From an uncultured Actinomycetes bacterium (lineage in GTDB: Bacteria > Actinomycetota > Actinomycetes > Nanopelagicales > Nanopelagicaceae): a DNA stretch of 54,579 bases. The stretch spans positions 1 through 54,579 of the forward strand of contig CAINVP010000032.1 of NCBI GenBank assembly GCA_903854185.1, read 5' to 3'. A program made the translations under genes and the position numbers. This document shows, piece after piece, positions 48,217 through 54,480 of the stretch; the stretch's first letter is position 1, and each line of letters opens with the position of its first letter. Below the pieces are notes generated by a model. That model was not told where the DNA came from, did not search any database, and saw only the letters and a list, made by a program, of their open reading frames with translations.

Positions 48217-49548
48217 ATGACTCCAGAGATGACTCTTACCCCCGCTCAAGTACTAGAGATGGAAGCAGATTGCATCCAGATCCTCCAAGAGTTGATCCGC
48301 ATTCCAAGCGTGAATTTTGGCGAAGGTCGGGGCGATGAGGAAGCAGTGGCCTCATATTGCGCAGAGAAGCTTAAAGAGGTTGGCATCGAAGCAGAGTTAG
48401 TTATCACTGGAGAGAAGCGAGTAAATGTTGTAGCCAAGATCGCCGGTTCCGACACCTCACGACCAGGGCTTGTAGTCCATGGCCATCTCGATGTGGTTCC
48501 TGCTGATGCCGCTGACTGGAGCGTGGACCCATTCTCTGGCGAGATCAAGGATGGCTATATCTGGGGTCGAGGCGCGGTCGATATGAAAGATGGCGACGCA
48601 ATGTTTCTCGCCATCGTTCGCGCATGGGCACGTGCTGGGATTAAGCCACCGCGGAATATTCTCCTCATATTCTTCGCTGACGAAGAAGCTGGAAGTCTCT
48701 TTGGCTCTCGCTGGTTCGTTAAGAATCGCCCGGAACTCTTTGAGGGTTACTCAGAGGCAATCTCAGAAGTAGGTGGCTTCTCGGTCACAATAACCGGCGG
48801 ACATCGGCTCTACTTCGTTGAGACCGCCGAAAAAGGAATCCAGTGGACCAAGATCACTTCTCACGGCAATGCCGGGCATGGCAGTTTCATTAACCCGGTA
48901 AACGCTGTGACAAAACTTGCACGAGCAGTTGCTCGAATCGGCCAGTACGAGTGGCCGCAGAGAGAGACTAAGACCGGTTCGAAATTCTTCGCGAAGATTG
49001 CTGAGCTCACGGGTGAAATCTACGACCCAACCAATCCACGTCCTCTGCTCAAACATATTGGGGGAGCGGCCAGAATGATGGGTGCGACCGTTCAAAATAC
49101 TGCCAATCCAACAATGCTTGAAGCAGGTTACAAGGCAAATGTCATTCCCCAATCTGCAACAGCGGTAGTGGACGGAAGATTCCTTCCAGGGTTTGAACAT
49201 GAATTAGCAGATACCCTCCGGGAACTCGTTGGTGATGATGGCGAGATTGAAGTCTTGGTCCGCGACAAGGCGCTGGAGGTCGATTTCGAGGGTCCACTTG
49301 TTGATGCAATGAACGGTTCCATTCTTGCCGAAGATCCCGAGGGAATTCCCGTTCCGTATCTCATGAGTGGTGGTACCGATAATAAGGCGCTCTCTGATCT
49401 TGGGATTATCGGCTATGGCTTCAGCCCACTTCGTCTGCCACCAGAGTTAGATTTCTTCGCGCTCTTTCATGGAGTCGATGAGCGAGTGCCAGTCGATGCT
49501 GTAAAATTTGGGGTACGAGTCCTCGGTAGATTTTTAGAGAACTGCTAA
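48217..49548 (+). CDS. M20 family zinc metallopeptidase
   Basis: The 443-residue product has the di-zinc peptidase set: VVHGHLDVVP (H90 ligand, D92), GRGAVDMKDG (D122 bridging ligand), FFADEEAGS (catalytic E156 and ligand E157), and a late GGTDNKALSDLG. The family includes dipeptidases, ArgE/DapE and related deacylases. Nothing here fixes the substrate, and no amino-acid biosynthesis partner is adjacent. GGCAGGAT lies before the ATG. It converges on the aldo/keto reductase gene with a 9-bp gap. Confidence 0.9.
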   Translation: MTPEMTLTPAQVLEMEADCIQILQELIRIPSVNFGEGRGDEEAVASYCAEKLKEVGIEAELVITGEKRVNVVAKIAGSDTSRPGLVVHGHLDVVPADAADWSVDPFSGEIKDGYIWGRGAVDMKDGDAMFLAIVRAWARAGIKPPRNILLIFFADEEAGSLFGSRWFVKNRPELFEGYSEAISEVGGFSVTITGGHRLYFVETAEKGIQWTKITSHGNAGHGSFINPVNAVTKLARAVARIGQYEWPQRETKTGSKFFAKIAELTGEIYDPTNPRPLLKHIGGAARMMGATVQNTANPTMLEAGYKANVIPQSATAVVDGRFLPGFEHELADTLRELVGDDGEIEVLVRDKALEVDFEGPLVDAMNGSILAEDPEGIPVPYLMSGGTDNKALSDLGIIGYGFSPLRLPPELDFFALFHGVDERVPVDAVKFGVRVLGRFLENC

Positions 49549-49557
49549 CGCACTCAC

Positions 49558-50511
49558 TTATTCTGAAATCGCTGAGACTTCATCCAACGCAAGTCGAACT
49601 TGATCTGGAAGAACTATCTCCTCGACAGTAAGTGCACCTCGTAATTGCGCCCCAGTGCGTGCGCCAATAATTGCTGAGGCAACCGCAGGGTGATCTCTGA
49701 CCCACGAGAGCGCCACTTCAAGCGGGGAGTAGCCAAGGCCCTCTGCTGCTACGCAGACGGCATCAACAATGGTTCTGCTTCTGGCATCTAAGTATCGGGC
49801 GATGGAATCTGCAAAGTGAGGTGTTGCACCGCGAGAGTCCGAAGGAATGCCTGCTCGATATTTCCCGGTAAGCACACCCCTGCCCAATGGCGACCAAGCG
49901 AGTAAACCAATTTCGAGATTTTCTACTGCAGAAGTTTCTTCTCTCTCGATTCGGCGATTAAGAAGCGAAAATTCAACTTGCAAAGATGTTATCGGCGCTC
50001 GGCCGAAGAGGGGATTTTGTAGTGTCGCCGCTTGCGCAACCTGCCATGCGGCATGGTTGGAGAGTCCCACATACCGTGCCTTACCACTTGAAACCGCAAA
50101 ATCTAACGTCGATAAAACTTCCTCCATGGATACGGTGGGATCAACAGCATGTATTTGCCACAAATCCACGTAATCAGTCCCCATTCGAGTAAGTGAACTC
50201 TCTAAATCTCGAATCAAGGCGGTTCGGGAATTGTTGACGACCCGTTCTCCATCGACGAAGGAAATTCCACCCTTAGTGGCGATCAGGAGCTCTTCCCTGG
50301 GCACGAGAGTTCCAAGAAATCCGCCGATTACTCGCTCGCTATCACCGTCGCCGTAGACAGCCGCGGTGTCGAGCAGATTTCCACCAGCGTCGACATAAGA
50401 ACGCAGCTGGTCAGCAGCCTCGTGCTCATCGGTATCTCGACCCCAGGTCATGGTTCCTAGTGTGAGGCGGGATACACGTAGCCCACTCTTCCCAAGTTGC
50501 CGCGTCTCCAT
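49558..50511 (-). CDS. Aldo/keto reductase
   Basis: The 317-residue TIM-barrel product has the catalytic tetrad: Asp and Tyr in LLDTAAVYGDG, Lys in LIATKGG and His in DLWQIHAVDP. NADPH-binding residues lie in the C-terminal SAIIGARTGAQLRGAL segment. The substrate is unknown. On the minus strand TAATCT lies seven bases before the ATG (50519-50524), close to the leaderless pattern seen elsewhere. It diverges from the histidine phosphatase gene over 48 bp. Confidence 0.92.
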   Translation of the reverse strand: METRQLGKSGLRVSRLTLGTMTWGRDTDEHEAADQLRSYVDAGGNLLDTAAVYGDGDSERVIGGFLGTLVPREELLIATKGGISFVDGERVVNNSRTALIRDLESSLTRMGTDYVDLWQIHAVDPTVSMEEVLSTLDFAVSSGKARYVGLSNHAAWQVAQAATLQNPLFGRAPITSLQVEFSLLNRRIEREETSAVENLEIGLLAWSPLGRGVLTGKYRAGIPSDSRGATPHFADSIARYLDARSRTIVDAVCVAAEGLGYSPLEVALSWVRDHPAVASAIIGARTGAQLRGALTVEEIVLPDQVRLALDEVSAISE

Positions 50512-50547
50512 ATCCGGCAGATTAGCAAAGTTTCGCTCCGAACTCGG

Positions 50548-50553
50548 TAACCT
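50548..50553 (+). promoter_or_regulatory. Candidate -10 element, leaderless start of histidine phosphatase operon
   Basis: TAACCT, within CGGTAACCT, is followed by exactly six bases and the ATG at 50560. The extended GGTANCCT form repeats what is seen before rpoZ, efp and the DUF948 gene. No Shine-Dalgarno sequence is present. Confidence 0.52.
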
Positions 50554-50559
50554 TCACTT

Positions 50560-51225
50560 ATGGCGCGGTCTACAACTATCACTCTCTTGCGACATGCGCA
50601 GTCGACCGCAAATCTTAAGGGCGTGCTGGCTGGGCGCATCGATGGCATCTCACTCTCACCAGAGGGCTTAGCGCAAGCGGATAGATTGGCAGAGGCCCTG
50701 CAGGCCATCACATTCGACCAGATATTTACCAGCCCACTTCAGCGATGCCAAGAGACCATCGCGCCTCTCTTAAAGCGAACAAAACAGAGATCTGTACGTA
50801 GTAAGTCGCTGCTTGAGATGGACTATGGGAAGTGGAGTGGAAAGAAGCTCGCGCTACTTGCGACCAAGAAGGAATGGGCAAGTATTCAGAGCGCGCCCTC
50901 ACGGTTCACTTTTCCAGATGGCGAGAGCTTTGAAGAGATGAGAAGTCGCTTGGTTGCCTTCATTGAAGAGAAGCGGAAGGTAGGCGGAGAAATTCTCCTC
51001 GTAACTCATGGGGATGTAATTAAGGTAGTTCTAGCCCATTACCTTGGAACGCCATTAGACCTCTTCCAACGGATCACCATTGATCCCTCCTCGCTCTCAA
51101 CAATCGCTTTTCGAGAAGATCGGGTCCAAGTTATTCGGGTCAACGATACGAGCTACTTGAAGAGCACGCTTTTACCGGAGAAGCGGGATGGTCATGATTT
51201 AGGTGGCGGAGCTGGACCACGATGA
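50560..51225 (+). CDS. Histidine phosphatase superfamily protein (PGAM-like)
   Basis: The 221-residue product has the catalytic LLRHAQSTAN motif (R11, H12; RHA instead of the common RHG), the acidic LLEMDYGKWSGK, and the second His in LLVTHGDVIK. It belongs to the group found beside DUF3090 and mshC in actinobacteria, whose substrate is unknown. It is the first gene of a tight three-gene operon and overlaps DUF3090 by four bases. Gly-rich C-terminal residues (GGGAGPR) look like a tail. Confidence 0.9.
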   Translation: MARSTTITLLRHAQSTANLKGVLAGRIDGISLSPEGLAQADRLAEALQAITFDQIFTSPLQRCQETIAPLLKRTKQRSVRSKSLLEMDYGKWSGKKLALLATKKEWASIQSAPSRFTFPDGESFEEMRSRLVAFIEEKRKVGGEILLVTHGDVIKVVLAHYLGTPLDLFQRITIDPSSLSTIAFREDRVQVIRVNDTSYLKSTLLPEKRDGHDLGGGAGPR

Positions 51226-51785
51226 GTAGGCGCAACTTTCTCCACGCGACCCCTGAACGTTTTATTGCCGGAACCGTTGGTGTCCCGGGTGAGCGAGCAT
51301 TCTTTATTCAAGTAAAGTCTCAACACCTGGTTACCGCGGTAGCGGTTGAAAAGACGCAGGTAGAGACACTTGCAACGAGAATTCAAGAGATTATTAAAGA
51401 TGTGAGAAAAAGTGGCTCCGCCTCTCACGATGAACTCAATCTCTCTATGCCGCGAGATAGCGAACCATTGGAATTTCCCTTGGATGAGGAGTTTCGGGTG
51501 GGCATCATCGCGTTGCTCTGGAGTCCAGACGAACAGCGACTCATTGTTGAATTTCAGGCAATTGCCGAAAGTGAAATTGAGGATTTGCTCACTGATGATG
51601 AGGCGGCACTTATTGAGGACGCGCCGGATCTTCTCGCAGTTCACTTACGGATTGCTCAGGCGCGGAATTTTGCAGAACGAGCGCTTGCCCTTGTATCGGC
51701 TGGTCGCCAACCATGCATCTTTTGCGGTCTTCCGATTGATCCAGATGGTCATCTCTGCCCTCGCGCGAATGGTTACCGTCGCTAA
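51222..51785 (+). CDS. DUF3090 family protein with C-terminal Cys/His motif
   Basis: The 187-residue product matches DUF3090, an actinobacterial family of unknown function. It has an N-terminal beta-rich domain and a C-terminal C165-x2-C168-x8-H177-x-C179 pattern that looks like a zinc or metal site. No signal peptide or membrane helix is seen. It overlaps the histidine phosphatase gene by four bases, and the kinase-like gene begins immediately after its stop, which implies a shared job. Confidence 0.87.
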   Translation: MSRRNFLHATPERFIAGTVGVPGERAFFIQVKSQHLVTAVAVEKTQVETLATRIQEIIKDVRKSGSASHDELNLSMPRDSEPLEFPLDEEFRVGIIALLWSPDEQRLIVEFQAIAESEIEDLLTDDEAALIEDAPDLLAVHLRIAQARNFAERALALVSAGRQPCIFCGLPIDPDGHLCPRANGYRR

Positions 51786-52478
51786 ATGCGCAACATCTCC
51801 CTTGACCTTTTAACGAGCGCTGAACTGCGGGTCACAGGTCGCATCATTGACGCATCGAACGCCTCGCTCCTGGGTGAGGTGGCGATTGATGATGAATGGG
51901 TAACGGTCATTTACAAGCCAGTAGTGGGGGAGCGACCACTATGGGACTTTCCTGAAGGCACCCTTGCTAATCGTGAAGTTGCAGCATTCGCGGTTAGCGA
52001 ACTCCTCGGTCTGCACATAGTCCCGCCTACAGTACTTAGAGACGGACCGTTTGGAATTGGCGCCGTTCAATTATGGTCTGAGCAAGATGAGAATTTCGAT
52101 CTTCTCTCCTTTGCTCAAAGTCGGGATGATCGTCTGCGTTCCATGGTGATCTTTGATGCATTAGTGAATAACACCGATCGTAAATTCGGCCATATTTTGA
52201 TGGACGGAGAACAACTTCTAGGTTGCGACCACGGCGTCACTTTCCATGTGGAAGATAAATTGCGGACGGTGCTCTGGCAATTTACTGGTGAAGAATTGAC
52301 CCAAAACGATCTCATCCTCCTCGACAGCGCTCTCGGAATAGATGAGAGCCAGCTACGCCCCTTACTCAGTGTCGAAGAAATTGAAGCTTTCTATGCCCGT
52401 GCCGAGCGTTTGAAGAGTGAGGGAATTTATCCTGAACCAAGCGACGATTGGCCAGCTGTACCTTGGCCACCGTTTTAG
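51786..52478 (+). CDS. SCO1664 family protein, PI3K/HipA-like kinase fold
   Basis: The 230-residue product matches the SCO1664 family. It shows a kinase-like set: K44 in VIYKPVVGERPLW, D131 and H136 in NNTDRKFGHILM (compare the DRxxxN loop of PI3-kinases), and D148 in LLGCDHGVTFH (compare DFG). Activity and substrate are unknown. It starts directly after DUF3090 and lies 53 bp before mshC. The same neighbourhood recurs in actinobacteria, so a role tied to mycothiol is possible, but this is inference. Confidence 0.85.
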   Translation: MRNISLDLLTSAELRVTGRIIDASNASLLGEVAIDDEWVTVIYKPVVGERPLWDFPEGTLANREVAAFAVSELLGLHIVPPTVLRDGPFGIGAVQLWSEQDENFDLLSFAQSRDDRLRSMVIFDALVNNTDRKFGHILMDGEQLLGCDHGVTFHVEDKLRTVLWQFTGEELTQNDLILLDSALGIDESQLRPLLSVEEIEAFYARAERLKSEGIYPEPSDDWPAVPWPPF

Positions 52479-52531: not shown

Positions 52532-53809
52532 ATGATTCACTCTGAAATGTTGCGTCACTCTTGGCCGTCAATCTTCATTCCCGAGGTGACTCGTACATTG
52601 CCGCCCCTCACCTTGCACACTCAAGCGGGAAATGCGCTCGTGAGCGAAGTTCCATTCACAATGTACGTCTGCGGAATCACTCCTTACGATGCTACCCACC
52701 TTGGACATGCGGCCACCTATCTCACCTACGATCTCATCCTTCGCTACCAGACCGCACTTGGTATTGGTGTTTCCTTTGCCGAGAACATCACCGATATTGA
52801 CGAGCCACTTTTAGAGCGTGCGGCGAGAGATGGTGTCGATTGGAAAGAGTTAGCGGATTCACAGATCGAGCTCTTTGCATCAGATATGACCGCTCTACAT
52901 ATTCAAGCGCCCGACAGTTTTGTCCCGGTCACACGTGTGATGTCGTTGGTAGAGCGGGCCGTTACCCGCATGCAGGAGAATGGCTTTGTTTATTCAGTTG
53001 GGGCAGATCTCTACTTTGACATCTCAACATTTTTGCCAAAATTGCCAATCTCTCTCGAAGCGGCGATGGCAATCTTCGCTGAACGTGGGGGCGACCCTGC
53101 TCGAGAGGGAAAGCGCCATCCGCTCGATCCCGTTCTCTGGATCGCCGAGCGCGCCGGTGAACCGGGCTGGGAGAGCAGCCACGGAAAAGGTAGGCCGGGC
53201 TGGCACATTGAATGTGCGGTGATAGCTTTGACGTTCTTAGCAGGTGAAGAATTTCTCTCATCCGCCGATGGGATGACTCGCTCGCTCGCAAGCTCTTCTA
53301 TTACTTTGCAAGGTGGCGGTTCAGATCTGATCTTTCCTCATCATTTTATGAGCGGGGCTCAAGCCGAAGCGATAACCGGAATTCCATTTGCCCAACATTA
53401 TGTTCACACGGCACTTGTCGGACTTGATGGCGAAAAAATGAGCAAGAGCAGAGGCAATCTCGTATTCGTCTCTCAGATGCTGCAAGACGGAACAGATCCG
53501 ATGGTCATCCGGTGGGCGCTACTCTCGACCCATTATCAGCAAGAACGGATGTGGGTCCCCGCCGAGATGGGACGATTCCAGCGCGAGGTTGACCTTGTCC
53601 GATTGGCTTTGAGCCGCGAAGAAGTATTACCCACAGATCAACTCATCAACAATATTGTCGAGGCGCTATCTACAAATCTTGATACTCCCATCGCACTTAA
53701 AGCGGTGCTTGATTGGGCAGAGGCAACTGTGGCCTCTGAGAGCGGATCTCAGCATGGAACAGGCGAGCTCTCTCGTACATTGGATGCACTTCTCGGATTG
53801 GCCCTATGA
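52532..53809 (+). CDS. mshC: Mycothiol ligase MshC (cysteine:GlcN-Ins ligase)
   Basis: MshC joins cysteine to glucosaminyl-inositol with ATP, the committed ligation in mycothiol synthesis. The 425-residue product resembles CysRS: YVCGITPYDATHLGHAATYL carries the HIGH-like motif and a zinc-ligand Cys, then NITDIDEPLLERA, WHIECAV, and KMSKSRGNLV. It lacks the long CysRS anticodon domain. Other mycothiol genes are not in the window. The start at 52532 is favoured by the leaderless -10; 52547 is the alternative. It overlaps the HAD gene by four bases. Confidence 0.95.
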   Translation: MIHSEMLRHSWPSIFIPEVTRTLPPLTLHTQAGNALVSEVPFTMYVCGITPYDATHLGHAATYLTYDLILRYQTALGIGVSFAENITDIDEPLLERAARDGVDWKELADSQIELFASDMTALHIQAPDSFVPVTRVMSLVERAVTRMQENGFVYSVGADLYFDISTFLPKLPISLEAAMAIFAERGGDPAREGKRHPLDPVLWIAERAGEPGWESSHGKGRPGWHIECAVIALTFLAGEEFLSSADGMTRSLASSSITLQGGGSDLIFPHHFMSGAQAEAITGIPFAQHYVHTALVGLDGEKMSKSRGNLVFVSQMLQDGTDPMVIRWALLSTHYQQERMWVPAEMGRFQREVDLVRLALSREEVLPTDQLINNIVEALSTNLDTPIALKAVLDWAEATVASESGSQHGTGELSRTLDALLGLAL

Positions 53810-54480
53810 GCATCTCATTTGAATCCGTGCTCTTTGATATGGATGGCACGCTCATCGACACCGAGCCATACTGGCATCAGTCTGAGGTTGATTTAATGGC
53901 GCGTTTCGGCGTGGCCTGGAGTGAAGATGACCAACACGCCTGCCTCGGTGGTCCACTCGATCGCGTTGGAAGATATATGTCAGATTTGGCGCACGGAGCG
54001 GAGAGCGCTGACTTCTTTGAGCAGACGCTAGTCACTCTCGTTGCAGAGAAATTTGCCCAAGGCATTCGATTCATGCCCGGCGCGCTCGAACTACTCACGG
54101 AAATTAAGTCAGTAGGAATACCGCTGGGTCTAGTTTCAGCAAGCCCGCGAATTCTGGTGGATTCAGCACTTCGTGCGCTCCCATTCGAGGCTTTCTCCAT
54201 CTCTATCTCGTCAACAGATGTGCAGCAGAGTAAACCTGACCCCGAGGGCTACCTTAAAGCGGCAGCAGCTTTAGGGGTGGATATCGAAAATTCGCTGGTA
54301 CTGGAAGATTCCGCAACCGGCATCACCGCTGCAAAAGCAAGTGGTGCCTTCGTGCTTGCGATCCCACATATTGTTGCACTGGAACTTAATGAAAAGTCAG
54401 TGAAGGTCGAGACGTTGGCTGGCCTCACCTATTCTGACGTAATCTCACTCTTTACCCATCTACCTAAGCAAGGGGCGTAA
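53806..54480 (+). CDS. HAD superfamily phosphatase (beta-phosphoglucomutase-like)
   Basis: The 224-residue product has all four HAD motifs: LFDMDGTLIDTEPYW (nucleophile Asp), LVSASPR, KPDPEGYLKAA (Lys) and LVLEDSATGITAA. A helical cap lies between the first two. The substrate cannot be assigned. It is coupled to mshC by an ATGA overlap and followed after one base by a trmI-like gene, an order common in actinobacteria. Confidence 0.92.
   Translation: MSISFESVLFDMDGTLIDTEPYWHQSEVDLMARFGVAWSEDDQHACLGGPLDRVGRYMSDLAHGAESADFFEQTLVTLVAEKFAQGIRFMPGALELLTEIKSVGIPLGLVSASPRILVDSALRALPFEAFSISISSTDVQQSKPDPEGYLKAAAALGVDIENSLVLEDSATGITAAKASGAFVLAIPHIVALELNEKSVKVETLAGLTYSDVISLFTHLPKQGA

Follow-up and report, generated by a model that had tools for sequence, protein, structure and literature searches.

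A phosphatase–DUF3090–kinase gene trio that follows MshA across the Actinomycetota and contains a candidate for the mycothiol phosphatase MshA2

Mycothiol synthesis and the described trio families

Mycobacteria, streptomycetes and corynebacteria rely on mycothiol as their main protective thiol. MshA, which catalyzes the first step of its synthesis, leaves a phosphate on its product, GlcNAc-Ins-P, and the next step belongs to a phosphatase, MshA2. This enzyme has been described as the missing phosphatase of the pathway, and candidates of the CysQ/IMPase type are set aside by the finding that mycothiol is normal in mutants of impA, suhB and cysQ (PMC2834668). The remaining suggestion of that study, impC (Rv3137), is a HisN homologue (PMC5516325). 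No gene is assigned to the dephosphorylating enzyme in the literature we found.

Three gene families that occur next to mshC in Streptomyces, Frankia, Actinomadura and other genera are already represented by NCBIfam models: a histidine phosphatase (TIGR03848), a DUF3090 protein (TIGR03847) and a kinase-fold protein (TIGR03843, the SCO1664 family), corresponding to Rv2135c–Rv2134c–Rv2133c. Rv2135c has been purified as an acid phosphatase, poorly active towards the generic substrates on which it was assayed (PMC3866925). Chater and Chandra reported that SCO1664, the kinase, generally lies in close proximity to mshC (PMC4255298), and the CxxC..HxC motif of DUF3090 has also been noted (PMC9425974). 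A first-pass annotation of the locus considered here suggested an undescribed phosphorylation cycle; for the genes and their linkage to mshC, these models and papers contradict the word undescribed. No function for the trio is assigned in the literature we found.

The trio locus and its conserved residues

The window, a stretch of 54,579 nucleotides from an uncultured bacterium of the Nanopelagicaceae (class Actinomycetes), carries the same families in the same order and with the same mshC neighbourhood (Table 1). It differs from the described trio in two respects: the scores of its phosphatase and MshC fall a little short of the curated cut-offs, and a HAD hydrolase gene overlaps mshC. ORF calls and junction sequences confirm that three reading frames precede mshC in tight succession: the ATG of DUF3090 overlaps the phosphatase TGA by 4 bp (CGATGAG), and DUF3090 and the kinase meet at TAAATG with no gap. 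The shared leaderless promoter proposed for them is plausible from the sequence, as 13 of 18 near relatives have a TAnnnT box 12–14 bp ahead of the start codon. Among named organisms, the closest are actinobacteria of the freshwater type, for example Candidatus Planktophila, with 57% identity in the kinase.

Table 1. Annotated features of the trio locus, in window coordinates
Feature	Coordinates	Strand	Basis and remarks
Putative leaderless promoter	50530..50559	+	-10 box TAACCT, starting 12 bp ahead of the ATG; lies within the 48 bp that separate the trio from a divergent aldo/keto reductase
Histidine phosphatase	50560..51225	+	ORF call; TIGR03848 / Rv2135c / MSMEG_4193 orthologue; candidate MshA2
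DUF3090 protein (TIGR03847, PF11290)	51222..51785	+	Predicted PUR-type fold; C-x2-C-x8-H-x-C tail
TIGR03843 (SCO1664 family) kinase	51786..52478	+	Predicted PI4K type II / FAM20 / HipA-like fold; catalytic residues kept
mshC-like cysteine:GlcN-Ins ligase	52532..53809	+	TIGR03447 445 bits, just below curated cut-off; KMSKS at residue 302
HAD-family hydrolase	53806..54480	+	4-bp overlap with mshC; lies outside the conserved cluster

Upstream of the trio, at 48217–50511, are an M20 peptidase gene and the divergent aldo/keto reductase, both of which are also retained in many Actinomycetes loci. The HAD hydrolase lies directly 3' of mshC in only 1 of 64 relatives, which excludes it as a member of the cluster or as a general MshA2.

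Family assignment is clear for DUF3090 (193.3 bits for TIGR03847 against a cut-off of 117.25, and 170 against 27 for PF11290) and for the kinase (272 bits against 172.4). The phosphatase, a His_Phos_1 protein, reaches 200.4 bits for TIGR03848 (cut-off 203.85), with alpha-ribazole phosphatase as its second-best NCBIfam match, and the cut-off for the MshC-like ligase is 485 bits. Both of these putative assignments are supported by gene position, by conserved residues and by the rest of the pathway. The genome from which the window comes carries mshA, mshB, mshC, mshD and ino1.

The catalytic set of the phosphatase (R11, H12, R62, E86, H150) is present in all 70 loci compared. It is thus a histidine phosphatase as first annotated, and shares its RHA motif with its orthologue Rv2135c; the motif is nothing special in itself, the residue after RH being G in 42 proteins and A in 28. 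The DUF3090 tail, C165-x2-C168-x8-H177-x-C179, is likewise present as proposed, with the three cysteines in 70/70 proteins and the histidine in 69/70. In the kinase, K44, E64, D131, R132, K133, H136, D148, W164 and R205 are invariant across 70–71 loci. The proposed active-site set K44, D131, H136 and D148 is kept in 71/71, so that loss of kinase residues in most family members, a check named beforehand, is not seen.

Distribution in the class Actinomycetes and across the phylum

Essentially every complete locus has its genes in the order phosphatase–DUF3090–kinase (about 55 loci outside the class Actinomycetes, in addition to the named Actinomycetes loci), far beyond what chance would give. 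Among 148 genomes of the class, one and the same set of 140 carries phosphatase, DUF3090 and mshC, and all but one of these (139) carry the kinase as well. The other eight, from three families, lack all of these genes; one family (f78) is split, with one genome carrying all and another none. This joint absence could reflect a single deletion of neighbouring genes. In several of the 140, for example G194, G241 and G250, mshC lies away from the trio and both are retained.

The exceptional loci differ in which member is displaced or missing. In G227 (L235, 7605–10149), mshC, DUF3090 and the phosphatase are adjacent and the kinase is cleanly missing from between DUF3090 and mshC, while C. glutamicum, which served as a control, has both phosphatase and kinase along with mshC and mshD, and no DUF3090. 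The phosphatase is thus the constant member of the set. DUF3090 is located elsewhere in G213, and on another contig in G222, G246 and G273. In G269 (L236, 7173–10329) the cluster is split into two pairs, with phosphatase and DUF3090 on one strand and kinase and mshC on the other. In G008 (L119, 6892–8266) there is an additional phosphatase–kinase pair lacking DUF3090, whose phosphatase is about 62% identical to the copies of family f27; from this resemblance, the pair has likely moved horizontally.

Across 178 Actinomycetota genomes, the trio is found in 75 (including G163, where the contig ends inside it) and a recognisable mshC in 38, with both in 37. Frequent occurrence in genomes lacking mshC had been named as the result that would count against a tie between the two, and it is what we find: 38 of the 75 trio genomes have no recognisable mshC. 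The trio is therefore not an accessory of mshC, and a role specific to mshC is ruled out.

Agreement is much closer with MshA, counted at a score of at least 365 bits: 69 genomes have both, six the trio only, two MshA only and 101 neither (phi 0.91). The corresponding values are 0.83 for mshB, 0.63 for mshD and 0.58 for mshC. Within the 38 trio genomes without mshC, MshA is kept in 34, ten of them above the NCBIfam MshA cut-off, and three of the remaining four have an mshB-like gene. Conversely, the trio is present in 69 of the 71 genomes with MshA; the phosphatase is absent from G044 and G055, and also from the weaker-scoring G039. In genomes from outside the class Actinomycetes, neither mshA nor mshC is near the trio, and the two are also apart from each other. 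The agreement between trio and MshA therefore does not come from a single deletion of neighbours, mshA not being adjacent to the trio. What remains of the earlier suggestion of a missing step in mycothiol or inositol metabolism is a changed version of it, a tie to the MshA step (69/75) and not to mshC.

G039 has mshA-, mshB- and mshC-like genes and a weak mshD match without the trio; if it makes mycothiol, another phosphatase must serve. G006, G021 and G036 (family f12) have MshA-, MshB- and MshD-family genes together with the trio and only one CysS-like gene, thus the cysteine ligase step may have been replaced or lost in them.

The same distribution bears on an explanation in which the trio has no role in mycothiol synthesis at all: it would be a housekeeping module, ancestral in aerobic actinobacteria, that shares the history of MshA by chance and lies beside mshC in one class only. 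Outside that class we found no conserved neighbours of the trio (acetyl-CoA synthetase, PhoB/PhoR/PstB, Ppx/GppA, RecO and others, named by eye from sequence, occur in some families only), and mshC is elsewhere, as this explanation would have it. However, it accounts poorly for the co-absence of trio and mshC in three Actinomycetes families, including the split within one of them, and for the retention of both where they are unlinked. We regard it as rather doubtful.

Predicted folds and the possible targets of the kinase

The structural model of the kinase (pLDDT 88.8) is nearest to phosphatidylinositol 4-kinase (PI4K) type II, with a Z-score of 16.6 and an rmsd of 3.6–3.9 over 215–217 residues, followed by FAM20 (14.2), CtkA (12.5) and HipT/HipA (about 10–11). 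Sequence profiles match FAM20A and PI4K II weakly (E-value 0.017 for PI4K type II). The kinase-fold lysine, the catalytic Asp and the metal Asp (K44, D131, D148) are in place in the predicted PI4K type II-like fold, and the TDRK and DHG motifs resemble the TDRG and DNG of PI4K type II and FAM20. The window kinase is 230 residues long and 17–20% identical to these proteins, and the likeness is one of predicted fold. A literature search returned nothing on PI4K-like actinobacterial kinases.

If the fold did reflect the substrate, the trio might run a phosphoinositide or inositol-phosphate cycle, the kinase phosphorylating phosphatidylinositol or inositol and the phosphatase dephosphorylating the phosphoinositide or inositol phosphate, in the service of membrane lipid and not of thiol. 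The inositol synthase gene ino1 is indeed present in 72/75 trio genomes, but it is also found in 53 of the 103 without the trio (phi 0.48), which makes inositol synthesis weak as the main link. The trio tracks MshA much better, and in the Actinomycetes it is absent together with mshC. Such a cycle is decidedly improbable.

HipA and HipT belong to the same kinase superfamily as the trio kinase, and HipA phosphorylates GltX. They differ from it in having an antitoxin partner and a toxin–antitoxin layout, and their structural similarity to it is lower. No antitoxin gene lies beside the trio kinase, the neighbours being the phosphatase and DUF3090, which argues against a toxin–antitoxin system; a defence system is not indicated either, the PADLOC match being weak (18 bits). 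A rival explanation modelled on the Hip kinases is a protein-phosphorylation switch. The kinase would modify the KMSKS serine of a class I synthetase, such as MshC or CysS, the phosphatase would reverse the modification and DUF3090 would sense the state. The resemblance of the model to HipA/HipT and to the protein kinases FAM20 and CtkA is consistent with this, as are the retention of KMSKS in 67/69 MshC proteins, the way kinase and mshC have stayed paired in G269 despite its rearrangement, and the phosphorylation by HipT of the KMSKS serine of TrpS (PMC6581861). However, the trio persists in the 38 genomes without recognisable mshC, and PI4K II stands well above HipA as the nearest fold. Characterised relatives of the phosphatase, moreover, act mostly on small molecules. 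We consider the switch unlikely.

The DUF3090 model (pLDDT 86.8) looks like a PUR-type fold, matching Pur-alpha with a Z-score of 9.5 over 109 residues against 6.4 for the next unrelated protein; Foldseek gives a weak match (E 0.02), and a sequence search found no solved structure. The likeness to PUR-domain proteins is one of predicted fold: identity is 8%, and DUF3090 has the extra Cys/His tail, which is modelled at low confidence.

A candidate for MshA2

As the one constant in a group of genes that tracks MshA, the trio phosphatase is a good candidate for MshA2. We propose tentatively, with a probability of about 0.4, that it is MshA2, that the kinase acts on inositol or on a regulatory target, and that the module works in that half of mycothiol-type inositol-glycoside synthesis which depends on MshA. 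The basis is the co-distribution, the constant order of the genes, the intactness of their active sites and the predicted folds. In this proposal the phosphatase would strip the phosphate from GlcNAc-Ins-P after MshA, as a dedicated biosynthetic phosphatase in the manner of CobC or GpgP, with which it shares the branch-1 fold and from which it differs in substrate, pathway and gene neighbours. The PI4K-II-like kinase may act upstream of MshA, with inositol or an inositol lipid as its substrate, or it may control flux through protein phosphorylation. DUF3090, with its predicted PUR-type fold and probably zinc-binding, may be an accessory scaffold or regulator. The module would have become joined to mshC in the Actinomycetes and stand apart elsewhere.

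Several points count against the assignment. MshA-like genes occur without the trio phosphatase in G039, G044 and G055, and six trio genomes have no clear MshA. Trio and MshA could both be parts of a shared aerobic-actinobacterial gene core, and a dedicated kinase is not needed beside a biosynthetic phosphatase. A fuller version, in which the phosphatase is MshA2, the kinase makes the inositol phosphate for MshA so that the two bracket the MshA step, and lineages that have MshA and the trio but lack mshC make a relative of mycothiol, either through a cysteine ligase that is unrelated or with a different end group, is very unlikely to hold in all its parts.

The genes and their linkage to mshC were already known; what is new is that the trio tracks MshA, the phosphate-leaving first step of mycothiol synthesis, across the phylum. 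The kinase and DUF3090 are thus more widespread than the mycothiol ligase, and the profile singles out one phosphatase, with a purified orthologue in Rv2135c, which makes this gap in the mycothiol pathway directly testable.
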